Position numbers and translations under genes: made by a program
Virus record (IMG/VR): IMGVR_UViG_3300024339_000099
Span: 1-21,198 of that record
From: a virus
DNA length: 21,198 nt
Reading direction: 5' to 3' (one strand)
Notes under the pieces: model-generated
The model's database searches: none
What the model saw: the letters and a program-made list of their open reading frames with translations, nothing else
Told to the model about the DNA's origin: nothing
Shown: positions 4,374 to 21,020 of the stretch, in pieces
How positions within the stretch are numbered: the stretch's first letter is position 1
How the letters are laid out: every line of letters starts with the position of its first letter

Positions 4374-5300
4374 ATGAAATTCAAGAATCCTATAGCAGAT
4401 TTATCTGCTCAGATTAATAAACATAAAGGTATAGCAAGAGCAAACTATTTTGCTATAACCTTTTCAGGACCTGCTTCGGTTCAACCCGATACTGTATCAG
4501 TAAATGCTTTATGTGAAAGTGTAACACTTCCTGGAAGAAGTATATCAACTAATGAGTTTGCTCCTGTTGGTGGTCAAATTAAACGACCTTATACATTTAT
4601 CAATGATGATGTAACACTTACATTCTATGTCACAAATGATTTTTATATATACCGTATCTTTGAAAAATGGATGAAACATGTTGTAAATGATGTATCCGGA
4701 TTTGTTGGATATAGAGATCAATATGCTATGCCAATGACAATATCACAACTTGATCTAAATAACAATGAAATCCATCAAGTGATGTTACATAAGGCATTTC
4801 CTATATCAATGGCTATAACACCATTAAGTGTTAGTGATGGTGCATTATCTAAGTTAACCATTGTGATGACCTTTGATAATTTTACAACTAAGGGAAGTAA
4901 CTTTGAGCAGGTTTCATCTACAGCAGATTTTGGGGATGCATTATCAATACCGAATCCTAACATCGCATCATTACCATATAGTCCATTTGGTGATATCCCA
5001 AACCAAGTTGAATTTGATCTAGACTCCGTTAAACAGGGTATTCAAACATCATTGGATGATTCGTTGAATTCTACTATTAATGCCATCAAAGAAAATATAA
5101 CTTCAACTGTCACATCTATAACATCACCTATCTCAGAAGGAGTAAAAGATATATTGGCGGGTGGTAATACTGGTCTTGGTGGTATCACAACACCATCAAC
5201 AGGAGTTGGGTTTCTTGACGATATTATTGGTGAAGTTAACACAGGAATTACGTCTATAACTAATAGAGCATCAACGGGTTTATCAAACTTGATTGGATAA
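4374..5300 (+). CDS. 54: Baseplate tail-tube initiator gp54
   Basis: A 308-aa protein close to T4 gp54 in length (about 320 aa). The central 150 residues follow the tail-tube fold: SVTLPGRSI, then INDDVTLTFYVTNDFYIYRIFEKWM, a D..SG.VGYRDQY segment, and MLHKAFPISMAITPLS followed by LTIVMTFDNF. T4 gp54 has the same order: a strand, a W-containing helix, D-P-V-TG, and a VMF..C.PISVSAPELS-type strand. gp54 sits on gp48 and nucleates gp19 tube polymerisation. The last ~110 residues are Ser/Thr/Ile/Gly-rich with amphipathic repeats and resemble no domain I know. It starts 2 nt after the preceding stop with an AGGATAATA leader, so the two are translationally coupled. Confidence 0.8.
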   Translation: MKFKNPIADLSAQINKHKGIARANYFAITFSGPASVQPDTVSVNALCESVTLPGRSISTNEFAPVGGQIKRPYTFINDDVTLTFYVTNDFYIYRIFEKWMKHVVNDVSGFVGYRDQYAMPMTISQLDLNNNEIHQVMLHKAFPISMAITPLSVSDGALSKLTIVMTFDNFTTKGSNFEQVSSTADFGDALSIPNPNIASLPYSPFGDIPNQVEFDLDSVKQGIQTSLDDSLNSTINAIKENITSTVTSITSPISEGVKDILAGGNTGLGGITTPSTGVGFLDDIIGEVNTGITSITNRASTGLSNLIG

Positions 5301-5335: not shown

Positions 5336-6040
5336 ATGGCATTACCTAGAATTAATACACCAAAATATACATTGGTTATACCTAGTACACAAGAAGAAAT
5401 TGAATACAGACCTTACCTAGTCAAAGAAGAAAAGATTCTTATGATGGGCATTGAAACTAACGATCAAAAGCAAATGATAACAGCATTACGTGATGTCATT
5501 TCTGGTTGCACTGACGGCAAAGTAAATGTTGATAAACTTCCTATGTTTGATATGGAATATATCTTCTTAAAGATTCGTGCTAAATCAGTTGGCGAAATTG
5601 CTAAGATTGGTGTCAAATGTACTTCATGCGAAACCAAGAATGAAATAGAAATCAATCTAGACAAAGTTAAAGTGTCGGGTGAAATGAAAGGATCTGAGAA
5701 GATTCAATTAACAGATGAAATTGGAATTGTATTAAAATATCCTACCGTGAAGGGTATCAAGCAACAATTATCATCTAAAAATGATGACAGAGATAATGCA
5801 ATGGGAGCAGTAGTATCTTCTATTGAATCTATTTACGATAAAGAAAGTGTATATCTTGCTCAAGATGAAACTCCAGCAAATCTACTAGCATTTCTAGAAT
5901 CATTAACTTCAACACAATTTGTGAAGATATCAGAGTATTTTGATGATATGCCAAAACTAAAACATGACATTGACTTCAAATGTGTATCGTGTGGTGAAGA
6001 TAACTCTGTAGTGTTGGAAGGTCTACAAAGTTTTTTTTAG
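5336..6040 (+). CDS. 26: Baseplate hub assembly protein gp26 (T4 baseplate family)
   Basis: A 234-aa protein, near T4 gp26 (208 aa). The N-terminal block (LPRINTPKYTLVIPST, YRPYLVKEEKILMM, then IDKLP-type and FDMEYIFLKIRAKSVGE) is typical of the phage T4-type baseplate family. Two CxxC pairs (Cys95/Cys98 and Cys216/Cys219) can form a zinc ribbon. gp26 is needed for hub assembly and works with gp51. The gene ends in Phe-Phe-stop encoded by an eight-T run from which the -1 frame reads straight into the gp51-like ORF. The ribosome site is a strong AGGAGA. It is followed by gp51 and the tape-measure gene, an order like the tail-chaperone/tape-measure order of other phages. Confidence 0.87.
   Translation: MALPRINTPKYTLVIPSTQEEIEYRPYLVKEEKILMMGIETNDQKQMITALRDVISGCTDGKVNVDKLPMFDMEYIFLKIRAKSVGEIAKIGVKCTSCETKNEIEINLDKVKVSGEMKGSEKIQLTDEIGIVLKYPTVKGIKQQLSSKNDDRDNAMGAVVSSIESIYDKESVYLAQDETPANLLAFLESLTSTQFVKISEYFDDMPKLKHDIDFKCVSCGEDNSVVLEGLQSFF
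6016..6039 (+). promoter_or_regulatory. Candidate -1 ribosomal frameshift signal at end of gp26
   Basis: The heptamer T TTT TTT (6031-6037) in the gp26 reading frame fits the X XXY YYZ rule, and the stop TAG follows at once (6038-6040). A GGAAGG Shine-Dalgarno-like element (6016-6021) lies 9 nt upstream, the geometry known to stimulate -1 shifting in dnaX. A -1 slip reads TTA GTA TGC and then the ATG of the gp51-like ORF in frame. The only downstream hairpin visible (CATG-TCA-CATG) is weak. Confidence 0.6.
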
Positions 6041-6045
6041 TATGC

Positions 6046-6222
6046 ATGTCACATGATTCATTAGAGAATTATTATAAGACTAATTTTTCTCTAATGCAAC
6101 ATCATAAATATTCTTTATCTGAATTGGATTCAATGATCCCTTGGGAAAGGGAGATATATCTTATGTTATTAGTACAATATATTAAAGAAGAAAACGACCG
6201 AATTAAATCTCAAAACAGGTAA
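6046..6222 (+). CDS. 51: gp51-like baseplate hub assembly catalyst, probably made by frameshift
   Basis: A 58-aa ORF (MSHDSLENYYKTNFSLMQHH... to ...ENDRIKSQNR) that is helical and charged. Its central motif SLSELDSMIPWEREIYLMLL resembles the short T4 gp51 family (Pro-Trp-Glu-Arg followed by a hydrophobic helix). In T4 gp51 is a catalyst for hub assembly and is absent from the virion. The ATG at 6046 has no ribosome site at usual spacing. Instead the frame is open back to 6004 inside gp26 and is in the -1 phase after the T8 slippery run, so a gp26-gp51 fusion of about 295 aa is predicted. It ends 6 nt before the tape-measure ATG. The family assignment is by size, motif and position. Confidence 0.7.
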   Translation: MSHDSLENYYKTNFSLMQHHKYSLSELDSMIPWEREIYLMLLVQYIKEENDRIKSQNR

Positions 6223-6228
6223 AAAATA

Positions 6229-9162
6229 ATGGCAAAGGATAATGATATAACAGATGCAATAGAACAACAAACTGAAGCGTTAAAAACTTCTTTGAATGTT
6301 GATGCTGTTACATCTGAACTTAAAAAACTAAATGATGTTTGGAAAGAGGGTGATTCTGAAGTAACAGAAGAAATTCAAGCATCTTCAGTTATGAATGTTA
6401 ATGCTATGGGTGAATTTGCTAGAAGGAATGAGGCAGCACTTAAAAAGGCACAGAAGGAAGCAGAAAAAAACAGTCCAATAAATAAATTAACAGAATCTCT
6501 AAAGGCACAAAATAAAATATTAGACACCAATTTGGTTATGGATGGTTTAAGTAAACAACTTGAAGATCTAAATGCTAATACTACAGAGAATTCTAGACAA
6601 CTTACCAGTCAATTTGCTGATGTTAGTTCAATATTAGAGAATCCTAGTTCATCTGATGAAGAAAAACAATCTGCTAGTGAAACACTTGCAGCACTTGGTA
6701 AATTAGCACAAGGTGAAAAACAACGTAGAGAATCTGAAAAGAAATTAAAATCTTTTGAAAATAAATCTTTAGAGAACTTAACTAAAACCCTAGAAGCACA
6801 AAATGAGGGATTACAGGTTTCGTTGTCTAAGGGAGATTTGGGTGCTAAACTTAAAAAACTAAACAAAGATTCAAATGAAAATTCACTTGAACTTGCCAGT
6901 CAATTTGCTGATGTTAGTTCAATATTAGAGAATCCTAGTTCATCTGATGAAGAAAAGAAATCTGCGAGTGAAACACTAGAAGCACTTGGTAAATTAGCAC
7001 AAGGTGAAGAACAACGTAGAGAATCTGAAAAGAAATTAAAATCACAAGCATCAATATGGAATAAGATTAAAGAAAATACCAAAGGAATGTCTGATGGTTT
7101 AAAATCACTTGGTGAAAGTTTAAAGTCTAAAGGTGGACTGCTTGCAGGTCTTGCTGGGATAGCACTTTTATTATTTAGCCCAGAAACATTCATTAAAATT
7201 ATAAATGGTGCTATTGATTTTGTCGTTGATATGTTTAAAGCAATTAATAAAATCGTTGAAGGCGATATTGGCGGTGCTTTAGAGTTGATTTGGAAACATG
7301 CAGGAATACTTTCTGGTATAATATTAGGAATTGGTTTGAAGTTTGGTGGTAAAATTATATCAGGATTTAAAGCGTTAAAGGTGGCTGTTACAGCAGTAAG
7401 AACTTTTATGCAGATGAAGTGGTTACCTGAAAGGATAGCAGACTTTAAAGGTTTCTTGAAAGGTCTTACGAAGTTTGCTGGTAAGGGGTGGAACCTTCTT
7501 AAAAATGCAATGTCTGCTGCTAAAGCTTTTATGATGACCAGTTTTATTCCTGGTATGATGGGAATGTTCTCTTCTATAGGTGCTGCTCTTGCTCCTATAT
7601 TAGCGGCTATTGCTCCAATGTTAGTACCAGCATTATTGATAGTAGGAGCAGCACTTGCTATTGGATTAGCAATAAAATCATTATATAATGCATTCAATGA
7701 TGCCTTTAAGACCTTTGAAGAAACTGGTTCTATTATGGAAACATTCAAAGCATTTATATCAGGGCTTGGTGCTACAATGATAGGGTACCCAATGGATCTA
7801 TTAAAAGATGCAATATCTTGGGTAGCAAGTGCTTTCGGTTTTGATGATGTTTCTAAATCTCTTGATTCGTTTAGTTTTCAGGATATCATTAAAAATGGTA
7901 TTGGCAACGCATTTGATTGGTTTGGTAATATATTTGCATCAATAGGAACCTCTATATCGAACTTTTTTAGTCCTATAATAGAATCATTTTCAAATATATT
8001 TCAAAATATAGGAACACTGATAAGTGAACTTCCCGCTAAAATTTATGGGTTTATACCAGATTTAATTAAAGACTTGGTTTCTTGGGTTGCTAGTGCATTA
8101 GGTTTTGAGAAATTTTCTGAATTATTAGATTCGTTTAGTTTCACTGATATATTCCAGAATGTTGTAGATACGATATTGGATACCATTAGTGGATTAATGG
8201 ATAGTGTTGTATCATTTATCACATCGGTTTTTGATTTTGATTTTATTGGAGCATTAACAAAAGCCATACCAGGTTTTGGTAAACTTGCTAGTTTTCTAGG
8301 TTTCGGATCTACAGAAACTAAAGTAACAGAAAAAAAGAAAGAAGAAAAGAAAACTGAACCATTGTCAAAGGAGGAAAAACTATCTAATGACAGAGCTAAT
8401 GGATTCAGAGGAGAAGGAAAGAGAAATTCTAACGATAGAAGGAAAGAGAGTAAACGTGTAAGAGACGATCAAGCAAAACAACTTAAAGATGCTGGTGTAA
8501 AAGACGGAAAATTCCTTGCTGGTCAACTGGTAATCGAAGGAAAGGAATTAACTAAAAATCAAAAGATAGCAAAGGCTAGAAACGATGCACGTGATAAAGC
8601 AGAAGCAGAAAAGGTTGCATTATTAACACCAGAAGAAAAGGAATCCTACGAATTTACTAAAGAAAATCCTTTTGATGGTGGGTTTACCATGCCTAAAGAT
8701 ATGGATTCTCGTGTTAAAGCTAAAAATGCTGCTGAGTTGGCTAAAACTGAAAAATGGGGAAACAAACATTATAGGAAAGAAAACGCTAAAAAGGAACCGC
8801 TTGATTCTACAGTAACAGATAAATCAACCGAAAAATCTGCATCTTTAGTTAAAGAATCCCCTGAAAAGGAAAGTGGTGGTATCTTATCAAGTATCGGTAA
8901 TTTCTTTAGTAGTAGTAGTAGTGATGAACCTGTGGTTGAAAAGTTAGAAACACCTGACTCTGGAGTATATACAAGAACCAATGAAAATATCAATGAAAAA
9001 GCAGAAGCAGATAAAGAAAGTAACAATATCGTTGTTGCTCCAGGTGGTTGGACTTCAAATAGTAATGCTACTACTAATGTGACAAATTCATCCACCGTTG
9101 TTTCTAGTGGAATTACTCCAGATGATATGGTGAAATTGTCGTTTATGAACACTGGATATTAG
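6229..9162 (+). CDS. Tail tape-measure / baseplate hub protein (gp29 analogue)
   Basis: A 977-aa, largely helical protein directly after gp26 and gp51, where a tape measure is expected. Residues 1-275 are charged coiled-coil with a ~97-residue repeat. About 49 residues of it are almost identical at 126-175 and 223-272 (SQFADVSSILENPSSSDEEK ...). Hydrophobic segments lie near 300-315 (LLAGLAGIALLLF) and 449-483 (Ala/Ile-rich), as in tape measures that later enter the membrane. A second repeat pair (WVASAFGF..SLDSFSFQDI / WVASALGF..LLDSFSFTDI) covers about 525-660. The C-terminal ~270 residues are Lys/Glu-rich and end in a Thr/Asn/Ser-rich tail. T4 gp29 is 590 aa, so the tail may be longer or the extra length may be accessory. 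The ribosome site is weak and coupling to gp51 is likely. Confidence 0.72.
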   Translation: MAKDNDITDAIEQQTEALKTSLNVDAVTSELKKLNDVWKEGDSEVTEEIQASSVMNVNAMGEFARRNEAALKKAQKEAEKNSPINKLTESLKAQNKILDTNLVMDGLSKQLEDLNANTTENSRQLTSQFADVSSILENPSSSDEEKQSASETLAALGKLAQGEKQRRESEKKLKSFENKSLENLTKTLEAQNEGLQVSLSKGDLGAKLKKLNKDSNENSLELASQFADVSSILENPSSSDEEKKSASETLEALGKLAQGEEQRRESEKKLKSQASIWNKIKENTKGMSDGLKSLGESLKSKGGLLAGLAGIALLLFSPETFIKIINGAIDFVVDMFKAINKIVEGDIGGALELIWKHAGILSGIILGIGLKFGGKIISGFKALKVAVTAVRTFMQMKWLPERIADFKGFLKGLTKFAGKGWNLLKNAMSAAKAFMMTSFIPGMMGMFSSIGAALAPILAAIAPMLVPALLIVGAALAIGLAIKSLYNAFNDAFKTFEETGSIMETFKAFISGLGATMIGYPMDLLKDAISWVASAFGFDDVSKSLDSFSFQDIIKNGIGNAFDWFGNIFASIGTSISNFFSPIIESFSNIFQNIGTLISELPAKIYGFIPDLIKDLVSWVASALGFEKFSELLDSFSFTDIFQNVVDTILDTISGLMDSVVSFITSVFDFDFIGALTKAIPGFGKLASFLGFGSTETKVTEKKKEEKKTEPLSKEEKLSNDRANGFRGEGKRNSNDRRKESKRVRDDQAKQLKDAGVKDGKFLAGQLVIEGKELTKNQKIAKARNDARDKAEAEKVALLTPEEKESYEFTKENPFDGGFTMPKDMDSRVKAKNAAELAKTEKWGNKHYRKENAKKEPLDSTVTDKSTEKSASLVKESPEKESGGILSSIGNFFSSSSSDEPVVEKLETPDSGVYTRTNENINEKAEADKESNNIVVAPGGWTSNSNATTNVTNSSTVVSSGITPDDMVKLSFMNTGY
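6605..6752 (+). repeat. Intragenic direct repeat, copy 1 (tape measure)
   Basis: A 148-bp segment repeated 291 bp downstream with about six mismatches. It encodes the SQFADVSSILEN... module of the coiled-coil region. The spacing equals 97 codons, so the reading frame is kept. Confidence 0.9.
6896..7043 (+). repeat. Intragenic direct repeat, copy 2 (tape measure)
   Basis: The second copy of the 148-bp segment. The mismatches change Gln to Lys, Ala to Glu and Lys to Glu in the encoded module. The high DNA identity points to a recent in-frame duplication. Confidence 0.9.
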
Positions 9163-10430: not shown

Positions 10431-11006
10431 ATGACCAGCACAACTATTTATACACCAATCACTCCAACATTTCTTTATATCAAGCAACACTCCATAACTG
10501 GTAAGAAATACTTTGGTAAAACTACTAGAGATCCCTATACATATCCAGGATCAGGGTTACATTGGAAACGACATATCAAAAAGCATGGTAAAGAATTCGT
10601 TGAAACCCTTTGGGTATCTGAACCATATTACGACACCAACATCACAGAAATTGCACTACAGTTATCTATTGAAAACAACATAGTAGAATCCAATCTTTGG
10701 GCAAATCTCATTCTTGAAAATGGTCTTGATGGTGGATTTGGTAATACAGGCAAGAAACATTCCGAAGAATCTAAAGCCAAGATATCTGATGCTAATACTG
10801 GCAGTAAACGCTCTGACGAAACCAAAGCAAAGATGTCTGCTGCTAAAAATCATATATCTGACGAAACTAGAGCAAAGTTGTCAGCTGCTAATAAAGGTGT
10901 TGCTCAAGAAATAGTCCATTGCCCACACTGTTCCAAAAGTGGGGGCCTTAGCCTTATGAAAAGATGGCATTTCGACAACTGCAAATCTAAGATTTCATCG
11001 CTATGA
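10431..11006 (+). CDS. GIY-YIG homing endonuclease with NUMOD3 repeats and C-terminal zinc finger
   Basis: A 191-aa protein in three parts. Residues 12-100 are a GIY-YIG-type nuclease with FLYIKQHSITGKKYFGKTT, then YPGSGLHWKRHIKKHG and a late catalytic-type Glu/Asn region (IENNI, NLILENGLDGG). Residues 108-157 hold three NUMOD3 DNA-binding repeats (HSEESKAKISDANTG, SDETKAKMSAAKN, SDETRAKLSAANKG). Residues 164-184 form a C-x2-C...H-x3-C finger. Such free-standing enzymes cut intergenic sites in related phages and spread themselves. It lies opposite to its neighbours, between gp32 and gp59, which adjoin in T4. Its stop overlaps the gp59 stop region by 6 nt. AAGGAA gives a good ribosome site at the chosen ATG. 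Confidence 0.88.
   Translation: MTSTTIYTPITPTFLYIKQHSITGKKYFGKTTRDPYTYPGSGLHWKRHIKKHGKEFVETLWVSEPYYDTNITEIALQLSIENNIVESNLWANLILENGLDGGFGNTGKKHSEESKAKISDANTGSKRSDETKAKMSAAKNHISDETRAKLSAANKGVAQEIVHCPHCSKSGGLSLMKRWHFDNCKSKISSL
10445..10452 (-). promoter_or_regulatory. Possible late promoter box towards gp32
   Basis: TATAAATA on the minus strand lies inside the first codons of the endonuclease gene and points at gp32, about 325 nt away. It would add late transcription of gp32. Being inside a coding sequence and distant, it may be chance. Confidence 0.35.
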
Positions 11007-14997: not shown

Positions 14998-15261
14998 CTA
15001 ACCTTTATAAATTTTTAGTAAATGTGTTTCAAATTGCTCTACCTTTTCTAAACGATTCGGCCATAGTATATATTCCTTTTCAGGGTTCTTTTTGAGATTA
15101 TTAAGTAATGGCACCACAGCATTGTATAGTGCATCAATTTTAGTTTGTAGATCTAATGCTGTACTTTCGGTTTTAAGAACTTGATTAGTTGCTTGTTGCA
15201 CAATATCAAGTTCTGCCTCATCTACAGCGGTAAATCCAAAATCGAATATATCATCTATCAT
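14998..15261 (-). CDS. Conserved T4-like hypothetical (87 aa)
   Basis: A small acidic helical protein whose C-terminal half (IDALYNAVVPLLNNLKKNPEKEYILWPNR then QFETHLLKIY) is a strongly conserved pattern in marine T4-like phages. The N-terminus (IDDIFDFGFTAVDEAEL) is acidic. No function is known to me. Its start overlaps the end of the ClpP-like gene by 11 nt, which suggests coupled translation. Confidence 0.72.
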   Translation of the reverse strand: MIDDIFDFGFTAVDEAELDIVQQATNQVLKTESTALDLQTKIDALYNAVVPLLNNLKKNPEKEYILWPNRLEKVEQFETHLLKIYKG

Positions 15262-15931
15262 CTAGTTTCCCACAACATTTTTTAGGTTTAACTTCTTCTT
15301 CTTCTTCAATGAAATCATCATCAAAATCATCGAACATGTTATCACCTTCTTCTTCATTATCTTCACTATACAATTCATTGATTAAATTTAGTCTAGCAAT
15401 AACTTCATCAGAATCCATCCAAATATCTTTATTATTTAGGATAGATTCGATTTCAACTTCAGTTAAGAAGTCTTCATATATCTCTCTTAATAGTTTTTCT
15501 GACCACTTCTTTTCGTGTATAATATTATCATACATTTCCCCACCCTTGCCAATAGTACCACCAGAATAATTGTGGAACATAAACATAGAATGATCTGATA
15601 CTTCATAACTAGAACCTTGAAGAAATATCATTGTAGCAGCAGACATACAAGCACCTTCAACAGAACAAATGACACTTGCTTCTGTTTCTTGAATAGATCT
15701 TATCATTTGAATAGCAGTGAATAAATCACCACCAAACGAATTGATATGTATCCTAACGATATCACCCTTAACAGCATTTCTGATTGTATCAAACCAATCA
15801 ATATACTCAGATGCTTCTGCTATTTCACCTAATAGATAAAACTCGTGAAGTGCTCCACCTAAAGGTCTATTTAAAAAACTATTGGACTTTTGATCAGATC
15901 CCAAAATCATCCCTATACTTTCACTTCCCAT
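15251..15931 (-). CDS. ClpP-like serine protease
   Basis: A 226-aa protein from the ATG at 15931, which has an ATAGGATATAAT ribosome site. The frame also opens from a TTG at 15964, inside the FeoA-like gene, which I think less likely. ClpP/crotonase-fold landmarks are present: YLLGEI, IVRIHINSFGGDLFTAIQMI (oxyanion glycines), GACMSAATMIF with Ser97, MFMFHNYSGG with His120, and the IWMD segment with Asp173, completing a Ser-His-Asp triad. The last ~40 residues are very acidic (about 190-213) and end in KKCCGKLDDR, absent from bacterial ClpP. It may pair with host Clp ATPases. It is not the T4 prohead protease gp21. Confidence 0.85.
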   Translation of the reverse strand: MGSESIGMILGSDQKSNSFLNRPLGGALHEFYLLGEIAEASEYIDWFDTIRNAVKGDIVRIHINSFGGDLFTAIQMIRSIQETEASVICSVEGACMSAATMIFLQGSSYEVSDHSMFMFHNYSGGTIGKGGEMYDNIIHEKKWSEKLLREIYEDFLTEVEIESILNNKDIWMDSDEVIARLNLINELYSEDNEEEGDNMFDDFDDDFIEEEEEVKPKKCCGKLDDR

Positions 15932-15950
15932 ATTATATCCTATCTTATAA

Positions 15951-16145
15951 TTAAGTTTCTTCAACTGTTAATGTATCCCATTCACTTGCACGGATACTTA
16001 TAAAACAACCACGAACCATCACCTCAATAGGATCTCCTAAAGGTGCTACTCTTATAACCTCAACAATAGTATATGGTGTCATACCGAAAGCTAATAACTT
16101 CTTTCTGATATCACTCTTAGCAATCTTTAGTATTTTATATTTCAT
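15951..16145 (-). CDS. Stand-alone FeoA-like SH3-domain protein
   Basis: A 64-aa protein consisting of one FeoA-type domain: RKKLLAFGMTPYTIVEVIRVAPLGDPIEVMVRGCFISIRASEWDTL. The G-M-T-P-G/Y-x-I-x-V and APLGDPIEV-V-G-x-x-x-SIR blocks are the usual FeoA core. In bacteria FeoA is a small cytosolic partner of the FeoB ferrous-iron transporter, and similar domains form the C-terminus of DtxR-type regulators. No FeoB or iron gene is seen nearby. It lies between GroES and ClpP in a takeover/lysis operon and overlaps neither tightly. The ribosome site is poor. The fold call is secure, but a phage role in iron or in protein docking is open. Confidence 0.8.
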   Translation of the reverse strand: MKYKILKIAKSDIRKKLLAFGMTPYTIVEVIRVAPLGDPIEVMVRGCFISIRASEWDTLTVEET

Positions 16146-16211: not shown

Positions 16212-16478
16212 TTACCTTTGTATAACCGCTATGATAAACTCTTCAGAGATAACGACACGTTGTTCACCATCAACTTTCACTGGTGTACTCTTTGCCCAAT
16301 CTAATAAGATTTCATCACCCACAGCAACCTCATTCACTTCTGATCCAATCTCAAGCACTCTACCAGTTTCATTATCAGACATACCAGAAGTACCTTCAAT
16401 AATAATTCCTGATGATGTTGTTTTTACACGTTCAATGTTTGCTACTAATACATTCTTTTTCAATGGTGCAAATTTCAT
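16212..16478 (-). CDS. GroES-like co-chaperonin (Cpn10)
   Basis: An 88-aa protein with the Cpn10 pattern: FAPLKKNVLVANIER at the start, TSSGIIIEGT as the mobile-loop region, then ETGRVLEIGSE, AVGDEILLDW and a C-terminal strand VISEEFIIAVIQR. Bacterial GroES is about 97 aa. Phage versions, like T4 gp31, replace host GroES so that GroEL can fold the large capsid protein. It follows the 191-aa late-type gene and has a moderate leader. It could serve capsid folding here, as gp31 does in T4, although it is more like true GroES than gp31 is. Confidence 0.9.
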   Translation of the reverse strand: MKFAPLKKNVLVANIERVKTTSSGIIIEGTSGMSDNETGRVLEIGSEVNEVAVGDEILLDWAKSTPVKVDGEQRVVISEEFIIAVIQR

Positions 16479-20541: not shown

Positions 20542-20570
20542 ATTATAACTCACATTCAAGGCAAAGTCAA
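20542..20570 (-). promoter_or_regulatory. Sigma70-type promoter of rnh
   Basis: TTGACT (20570-20565), 17-bp spacer, TATAAT (20547-20542). The -35 lies in the last codons of the GIY-YIG gene, whose TGA stop falls in the spacer. Confidence 0.8.
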
Positions 20571-21020
20571 CTCTTTTACATGATTTCTATGGATCTTCGC
20601 TTGTACTATTCCATTATACCATAGATCAGGATGTAATAATACTTCACGGAAAATCTGTTCCCTTAATTCTACATACGACAATGCACCCTTAGATTTGCAA
20701 TAAAACAATATCTCTCTTGTAAAGTTTTCTGCTCCTAGTGAAACCACATCAGACGACAACTCTACACTGGAACCATAATAAGTTTTCCAATCAGATTCTA
20801 CTTGACTCTTAATCTTCTTACGTTTCTTTGTTCCATCCTTTAAGGTCACCATCTTGTACTTAGTCTTAGCAAACTTTGCAAGTTTCTTACCAATATATTT
20901 TCTATTATTGGTAAGATTCGTCACCATATAAACGAACCCGACACAATCATCGGGTAATGTTTCTACTAAAGTATTCTGGTGATACCAATCATTATTCAAA
21001 ATCTTCATCATCAGATTCAT
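20556..21020 (-). CDS. GIY-YIG-domain protein (Seg-type endonuclease-like)
   Basis: A 154-aa single-domain protein with VGFVYMVTNLTNNRKYIGKK as the GIY-YIG motif pair, SDWKTYYGSS, then LGAENFTREILFYCKSKGALSYVELREQIFREVLL carrying the catalytic-type Arg and Glu, and a C-terminal YNGIVQAKIHRNHVK with an Asn. There are no DNA-binding modules such as NUMOD3. I know this as a widespread family in marine T4-like phages, perhaps a domesticated nuclease rather than an active homing enzyme. The start at 21020 overlaps the zinc-ribbon gene by 29 nt. ATGs at 21011 and 21008 are equally plausible, and no strong ribosome site decides. Confidence 0.78.
   Translation of the reverse strand: MNLMMKILNNDWYHQNTLVETLPDDCVGFVYMVTNLTNNRKYIGKKLAKFAKTKYKMVTLKDGTKKRKKIKSQVESDWKTYYGSSVELSSDVVSLGAENFTREILFYCKSKGALSYVELREQIFREVLLHPDLWYNGIVQAKIHRNHVKELTLP

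Follow-up and report, generated by a model that had tools for sequence, protein, structure and literature searches.

The gp26-like and gp51-like reading frames of the virus record IMGVR_UViG_3300024339_000099, whose 21,198 bases are the window analyzed here, are very probably joined by a programmed -1 frameshift. We consider it highly likely that a slip at a U heptamer yields a short and a fused tail assembly chaperone, and that T4 has a gene duplication instead. The pair is most readily understood as the T4-side equivalent of lambda G/GT, given the short and fusion paralogy of T4 gp26 and gp51 and the N-terminus of gp26, which resembles the HK97 chaperone. Under this model, ribosomes on gp26 would reach U_UUU_UUU just 5' of the stop codon, where most would terminate and release a short chaperone of 234 amino acids; a minority would slip back one base into the gp51 frame and produce a fusion of 295 amino acids. 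An SD-like element 9 nt upstream would pair with the 16S rRNA in the elongating ribosome, aiding the slip. We infer that slippage actually takes place, at a rate that leaves the fusion in the minority, and that the two forms differ in what they bind: if lambda G/GT is a guide, the short form would cover, in many copies, the tape measure protein made from the neighbouring gene, and the fusion, present in few, would bring in the tail tube protein via the gp51 domain. In T4-type phages, the slip would have been replaced by duplicated genes, 26 for the short form and 51 for the full-length one.

The junction is laid out as the original prediction described it (table 1). The gp26 product matches the Pfam family PF12322 "T4_baseplate" (E 1.5e-63) and phrog_150 (E 3.7e-68). 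Its zero-frame codons at the heptamer are AGT TTT TTT and its C-terminus is S-F-F-stop, the TAG following T_TTT_TTT at once. A -1 slip was predicted to continue in frame through the whole gp51-like ORF, and it does: the reading after the slip is TTA GTA TGC ATG TCA (LVCMS), within a -1 frame that overlaps gp26 by 37 nt and extends 182 nt beyond it. The post-slip part, from 6037, comprises 61 residues of the gp51-like domain. This frame matches phrog_634, the gp51 family annotated as "baseplate hub assembly catalyst" (E 5.4e-28), and also the end of the phrog_150 profile (positions 237-278 of 282, E 4.1e-6), which was a first hint that both frames are one protein. The product encoded next downstream matches the tape measure families phrog_1535, phrog_58, and phrog_4197 (E 2e-8 to 3.5e-8), its best match being phrog_27688 (E 3.6e-13), to which no function is assigned there. 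The tape measure gene adjoins the pair in the window, whereas relatives such as HTVC008M and Cr30 have one small gene in between. Within the N-terminal part of the window's tape measure gene, a 102-base stretch occurs twice (6599-6700 and 6890-6991, 94% identical), a duplication that looks recent. Elsewhere, the window encodes two homing-endonuclease-like proteins, one with a NUMOD3 motif and one of the SegE-type GIY-YIG kind (10431-11006 and 20556-21020), and, on the minus strand, GroES-like (Cpn10) and Clp protease-like genes (16212-16478 and 15251-15964, respectively).

Table 1. Features at and around the gp26-gp51 junction of the window.
Feature	Position	Strand	Basis or remark
Tail tube protein gene (gp19-like)	4374..5300	+	Directly upstream of gp26; phrog_45 E 3.3e-33; PF23849 E 3.1e-7
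gp26-like gene, predicted short form (TAC-N, putative lambda gpG counterpart), 234 aa	5336..6040	+	PF12322, phrog_150
-1 frame, open	6004..6222	+	gp51-like C-terminal domain after predicted slip; stop 6220-6222
SD-like element GGAAGG, putative frameshift stimulator	6016..6021	+	Read directly; 9 nt 5' of heptamer
Slippery heptamer T_TTT_TTT	6031..6037	+	Within run of 8 T
Zero-frame gp26 stop TAG	6038..6040	+	Read directly; directly 3' of heptamer
ATG of stand-alone gp51, probably not main start	6046..6048	+	58-aa ORF 6046-6222; weak SD
Predicted hairpin, window-specific	6059..6096 (6059-6068 with 6087-6096)	+	Within fold of z -3.05
Tape measure protein gene, 977 aa	6229..9162	+	Directly downstream; PHROG matches

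The arrangement recurs in relatives. An IMG/VR scan with gp26 gave 82 loci, the best 80 of 421 relatives plus two pieces of the window's own record; gp26 is complete in 79, two of them from the window's own record and six 100% identical copies, and gp51 lies in the -1 frame in all 79. Further scans (one giving the best 80 of a larger set) and 16 named isolates, hand-picked from listings, brought the collection to 251 loci including the window. Fifteen were set aside beforehand: two window copies (L001 and L002) and 13 loci with separate genes (T4, ten T4-type loci, RB43, and Aeromonas phage 31). A gp26 stop is present in 247 of the 251 loci and missing in four; 163 loci remain at <90% identity, or 161 once L114 (broken frame) and L244 (masked) are dropped. 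Near the gp26 end, a zero-frame T_TTT_TTN occurs in 154 of these 161 non-redundant loci (window in, T4-type phages out), and in every one of the 154 the heptamer lies within an open -1 frame. The seventh base of the heptamer is C in 120 loci, T in 29, A in 3, and G in 2. The gp26 stop follows after 3 nt in 132 loci, directly in 17, and after 6, 9, or 24 nt in 5; the stop distance varies while the heptamer stays, so that the heptamer is what is kept. The control was formed by the 416 other Phe-Phe pairs that these loci encode in long plus-strand ORFs, of which 26 have T_TTT_TTY. The -1 extension reaches at least 140 nt in 151 loci, the remaining three running off their contigs, and the +1 extension has a median of 16 nt. 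The 154 loci form 47 clusters at 55% identity in a sample that leans to relatives of the queries; because the loci are related and the scans return the best 80 of larger sets, these counts overstate independence. The junction layout is far from chance. Slippery heptamer and -1 overlap are thus conserved at the position where the original prediction placed a programmed frameshift site, which the sequence comparison supports.

The strict heptamer is absent from seven of the 161 loci: Vibrio phage D492, the Ackermannviridae Kuja, Menlow, Ds23CZ, and PhaxI, and two PhaxI relatives from IMG/VR. In these (L101, L105, L106, L107, L108, L132, L138), the -1 frame stays open for 149-191 nt, and gp26 ends in ATTTTC, CTTTTC, or CTTTTTC. 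Among the 16 named isolates, the five just listed by name lack the heptamer and 11 carry it (P-SSM2, HTVC008M, Melnitz, P-HM2, Cr30, RHph_Y68, ACP17, OLIVR5, QD01, avDM6, and S-SKS1). None of the 16 records annotates a joined gp26-gp51 coding sequence, and three (ACP17, avDM6, Menlow) show no gene at the gp51 position.

Seven of the same records annotate gp51 as its own gene, as if it were a separate protein begun at an ATG of its own, whether by coupling or by reinitiation once gp26 has terminated, with the overlap a mere product of compact packing. The window does offer an ATG 5 nt after the stop, and across the 154 loci the searched -1 stretch contains an ATG in 94, only GTG or TTG in 25, and none of these in 35. 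We nevertheless judge a separate gp51 improbable. For the window's group we use 34 of the 154 loci (A3) and for cyanophage-type phages 73 (A2), both chosen by locus number; within the former, an ATG at the 6046 site occurs in a single locus, the window itself, and is missing from the other 33, while any ATG, GTG, or TTG in the searched stretch is found in 15 of 34. The anti-SD energy before ATG 6046 is -0.4 kcal/mol, almost no SD at all, where the gp26 start has -7.4 and that of the tape measure gene -3.8; this is in line with the predicted lack of a ribosome site of its own. More widely, -4 kcal/mol or lower is reached before candidate gp51 starts in 9 of 119 loci, as against 59 of 150 gp26 starts and 45 of 136 next-gene starts. 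A separate start also leaves the fixed -1 frame and the heptamer unexplained, and in T4 a gp26-like domain and the gp51 part are encoded together by one gene, 51. Given the 94 loci with an ATG, some free gp51 could be made alongside the frameshift product, chiefly in cyanophage-type loci.

A second signal lies upstream of the heptamer. Averaged over the 154 loci, anti-SD pairing energy is lowest 15 nt before it (offset -15), at -7.0 kcal/mol; the background further upstream is -0.53 kcal/mol (sd 0.40). The GGAAGG of the window sits at this minimum. An SD-like core lies 8 or 9 nt 5' of the heptamer in 138 loci; by the pattern list used, eight have none. When synonymous codons were permuted gene by gene, the null mean was -5.33 versus -7.09 observed, the observed value being lower in 124 of 154 loci (Wilcoxon 1e-17); at control positions anti-SD pairing was slightly weaker than its own permutation null, that is, in the opposite direction. 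Codon choice at the site follows suit: Glu is GAG in 93 of 113 cases here versus 1080 of 3534 elsewhere, and the preceding Leu is TTG or CTG in 62 of 121 versus 741 of 2956. Tested singly, p 0.05 is attained by 12% of loci and not by the window (p 0.22); the putative SD-like stimulator is a property of the group, stronger than codon usage predicts.

A slip of RNA polymerase on the T run, instead of the ribosome, is less probable still than a separate gp51 start. The run comprises 8 T in the window and 8 or 9 T in nine of the 154 loci, but exactly 6 T in 125, which is short for transcriptional slippage; moreover, the phase of the heptamer is fixed, and the SD-like element stands at a distance relevant to the ribosome. 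Homopolymer runs are prone to indels, but that a sequencing or assembly error split one gene is scarcely credible, being contradicted by independent records: the same junction recurs in six 100% identical loci of other IMG/VR records (L003-L008), and the isolates P-SSM2, HTVC008M, and Melnitz share the layout.

The geometry of the upstream element had been likened to that of the dnaX frameshift stimulator. This likeness holds, with an SD-like GGAAGG 9 nt before the heptamer; the downstream hairpin that the dnaX signal also has was found in most of the cyanophage-type set and not in the window's group. In the former, an 11-pair hairpin starts 5 nt 3' of the heptamer. Over the 73 loci, which include some without the hairpin, 77.8% of cells are paired, a share that no slid version brings above 47.0%, and covariation stands at 0.169 versus at most 0.088; pair 42-56, for instance, is UA in 34, GC in 8, AU in 7, GU in 1, and unpaired in 23. 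Two of five measures do not rise above controls in this set. Pairs with changes on both sides number 4, a value that 163 of 500 shuffles also reach, with 5 in some slid versions; pair types number 11, also reached in 69 of 500 shuffles. By eye, the ATG often falls inside the hairpin in cyanophage-type loci. Some of these loci without the main hairpin (L200-L203, L207, L208, L218-L220) show another short hairpin 3' of the heptamer, centred on GGUCC-AUAU-GGACC, whose variants keep pairing (by eye).

For the 34 loci of the window's group, a conserved downstream structure was rejected: the main stem is 55.6% paired versus up to 56.8% in slid versions, and no pairs are predicted by RNAalifold. Nor does the SD-like element pair with the downstream CCUCUC beyond what shuffles give. 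The window's own downstream fold has a z of -3.05, and its stem is not conserved over the 34 loci. Across the 47 clusters, the 60 nt downstream fold with a mean z of -1.54 versus -0.47 at a control site, 18 of 47 lying below -2; single folds outside cyanophage-type loci share, by eye, no common hairpin position. As far as the dnaX signal is described in excerpts of the literature (PMC3711429), the likeness covers the upstream SD-like element, the homopolymer heptamer, and, in the cyanophage-type set, the hairpin 5 nt downstream; the differences are a U heptamer here versus A, and the window's group being without a conserved hairpin.

Separate ORFs with ribosome sites and no slippery run, the pattern that would speak against frameshifting, fit T4-type phages only, in which gp26 and gp51 are fused within the long gene. 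T4 genes 26 (208 aa) and 51 (249 aa) lie on opposite strands, as in Aeromonas phage 31, and in five other loci (L088-L091 and L093) a gp26 homologue stands beside gp51 on the opposite strand. Both T4 proteins match PF12322 (gp26, E 8.8e-64; gp51, E 3.9e-52) and each other (blastp E 1.7e-6); by their sequences, they are paralogues. T4 gp26 aligns with the short form of the window (E 9e-10). T4 gp51 aligns over residues 16-244 of 249 with the predicted window fusion (blastp E 2e-5, 19% identity), covers phrog_150 positions 13-280 of 282, tail included, and shares with the window gp51 a match to phrog_634. T4 gp26 would thus correspond to the short form and T4 gp51 to the fusion. The homologous proteins are thus present in short and full-length form, as predicted for the window; what differs is that they come from separate genes, on opposite strands, with no slippery run. 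The end of T4 gene 26, GAG TTC TTT GAG, keeps Phe-Phe without the run. In a tree of 65 of the 66 rows given (L091_gp26, whose start was not recovered, was dropped), T4-type gp26 rows form one group (99/96) and T4-type gp51 rows another (100/100), the two together being split from other rows by a branch of 97/86. A single duplication behind the T4-type genes is likely; the tree tool warns of long branches, and we therefore stop short of calling it proven. A gp26 was not found within the 3.7 kb of RB43 examined. QD01 and avDM6, which we take to be KVP40-like and Aeh1-like, respectively, are filed under Straboviridae like T4 and keep the frameshift layout. Separately, T4 gp26 (L083:3806-4429) weakly matches PHROG 1140, the gp28 family (E 0.00094), and gp28 may be a further relative. 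In the excerpts available, a 2010 review tabulates T4 gp26 and gp51 both as hub assembly chaperones and reports that genetic studies favour gp26 as part of the T4 hub (PMC3004832), which is hard to reconcile with a chaperone that does not stay in the particle.

Structure prediction is supportive, not decisive, in that the modelled N-terminal fold of gp26 is similar to that of the HK97 tail assembly chaperone. The protein alignments and models do not include L092, whose frame is broken. The AF2 model of the window gp26, built with 64 sequences, has a pLDDT of 88.9. When Foldseek candidates were re-compared, its residues 1-85 matched the HK97 chaperone 2ob9 at rank 2 with a Z of 7.8 (83 of 107 residues, rmsd 4.0, 7% identity), behind the uncharacterised 3fgx (Z 8.0, 85 residues) and ahead of rows at Z 5.1 and 2.8; neither 8.0 nor 7.8 exceeds what the tool regards as safe. 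Foldseek's own output gave 2ob9 the top probability among the 50 rows listed (0.60), with a poor E-value (0.96). Past residue 85, gp26 continues for a further 149 residues, which include two Cys-x-x-Cys pairs and set it apart from the HK97 protein. The T4-type gp51 model (pLDDT 90.1) matched 2ob9 weakly (Z 3.7, rank 4) and gave no convincing Foldseek match. A sequence search of solved structures returned nothing better than E 0.17, and an NCBIfam search nothing useful.

The equivalence to G/GT proposed in the original prediction is, on sequence evidence, supported, T4 26 and 51 being paralogous as short and full-length forms. As with lambda gpG and gpGT, a short form and a -1 fusion would be made next to the tape measure gene. 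Lambda G/GT uses the heptamer GGGAAAG; here it is U_UUU_UUN, and the conserved SD-like element is a further difference. In T4-like phages, Vladimirov, Gautam, and Davidson reportedly identified the tail assembly chaperone genes in 2022 (Virology 566:9-15), with frameshifting retained in several groups and T4 relying on 26 and 51. Of two papers that cite Vladimirov et al. 2022, one states in the excerpts available that frameshifting is replaced in some T4-like phages by two chaperone genes, one short and one long and fused (the PRFect paper, PMC10885494), and the other that the TAC-N genes of T4-like phages are known to contain poly-T slippery sequences (the Adele paper, PMC12846349). Seen through these citing papers, the genes and layout are apparently the same as ours; to that extent the principle is already published in outline (Vladimirov et al. 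2022), and the window is a further case. No description of stimulators at the gp26-gp51 junction was found in the titles and abstracts searched, a body of literature that contains few subscription papers, or in the citing passages; two elements may be new, the support at codon level for an SD-like stimulator and the hairpin of cyanophage-type loci.

Taking these observations together, we lean toward a reading, somewhat more probable than its opposite, in which the wider T4 group sets the ratio of short to long chaperone by a dnaX-like signal. This would consist of an internal SD-like element and a U heptamer, to which cyanophage-type members would add a hairpin that has compensatory changes and also buries the annotated gp51 start codon. 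T4-type phages would later have fixed both products as the duplicated genes 26 and 51, which would be why T4 is listed as an exception to G-T frameshifting. The same model bears on an older observation, that cyanophage gp51 has about 20% of its usual length, given in excerpts of Sullivan et al. 2010 (PMC3037559), a paper whose main text does not contain the word "frameshift". The short cyanophage gp51 would be explained because the missing remainder is gp26, supplied by the slip. The analysis thus offers a concrete candidate for the stimulator and would place T4 within the general rule, not outside it.
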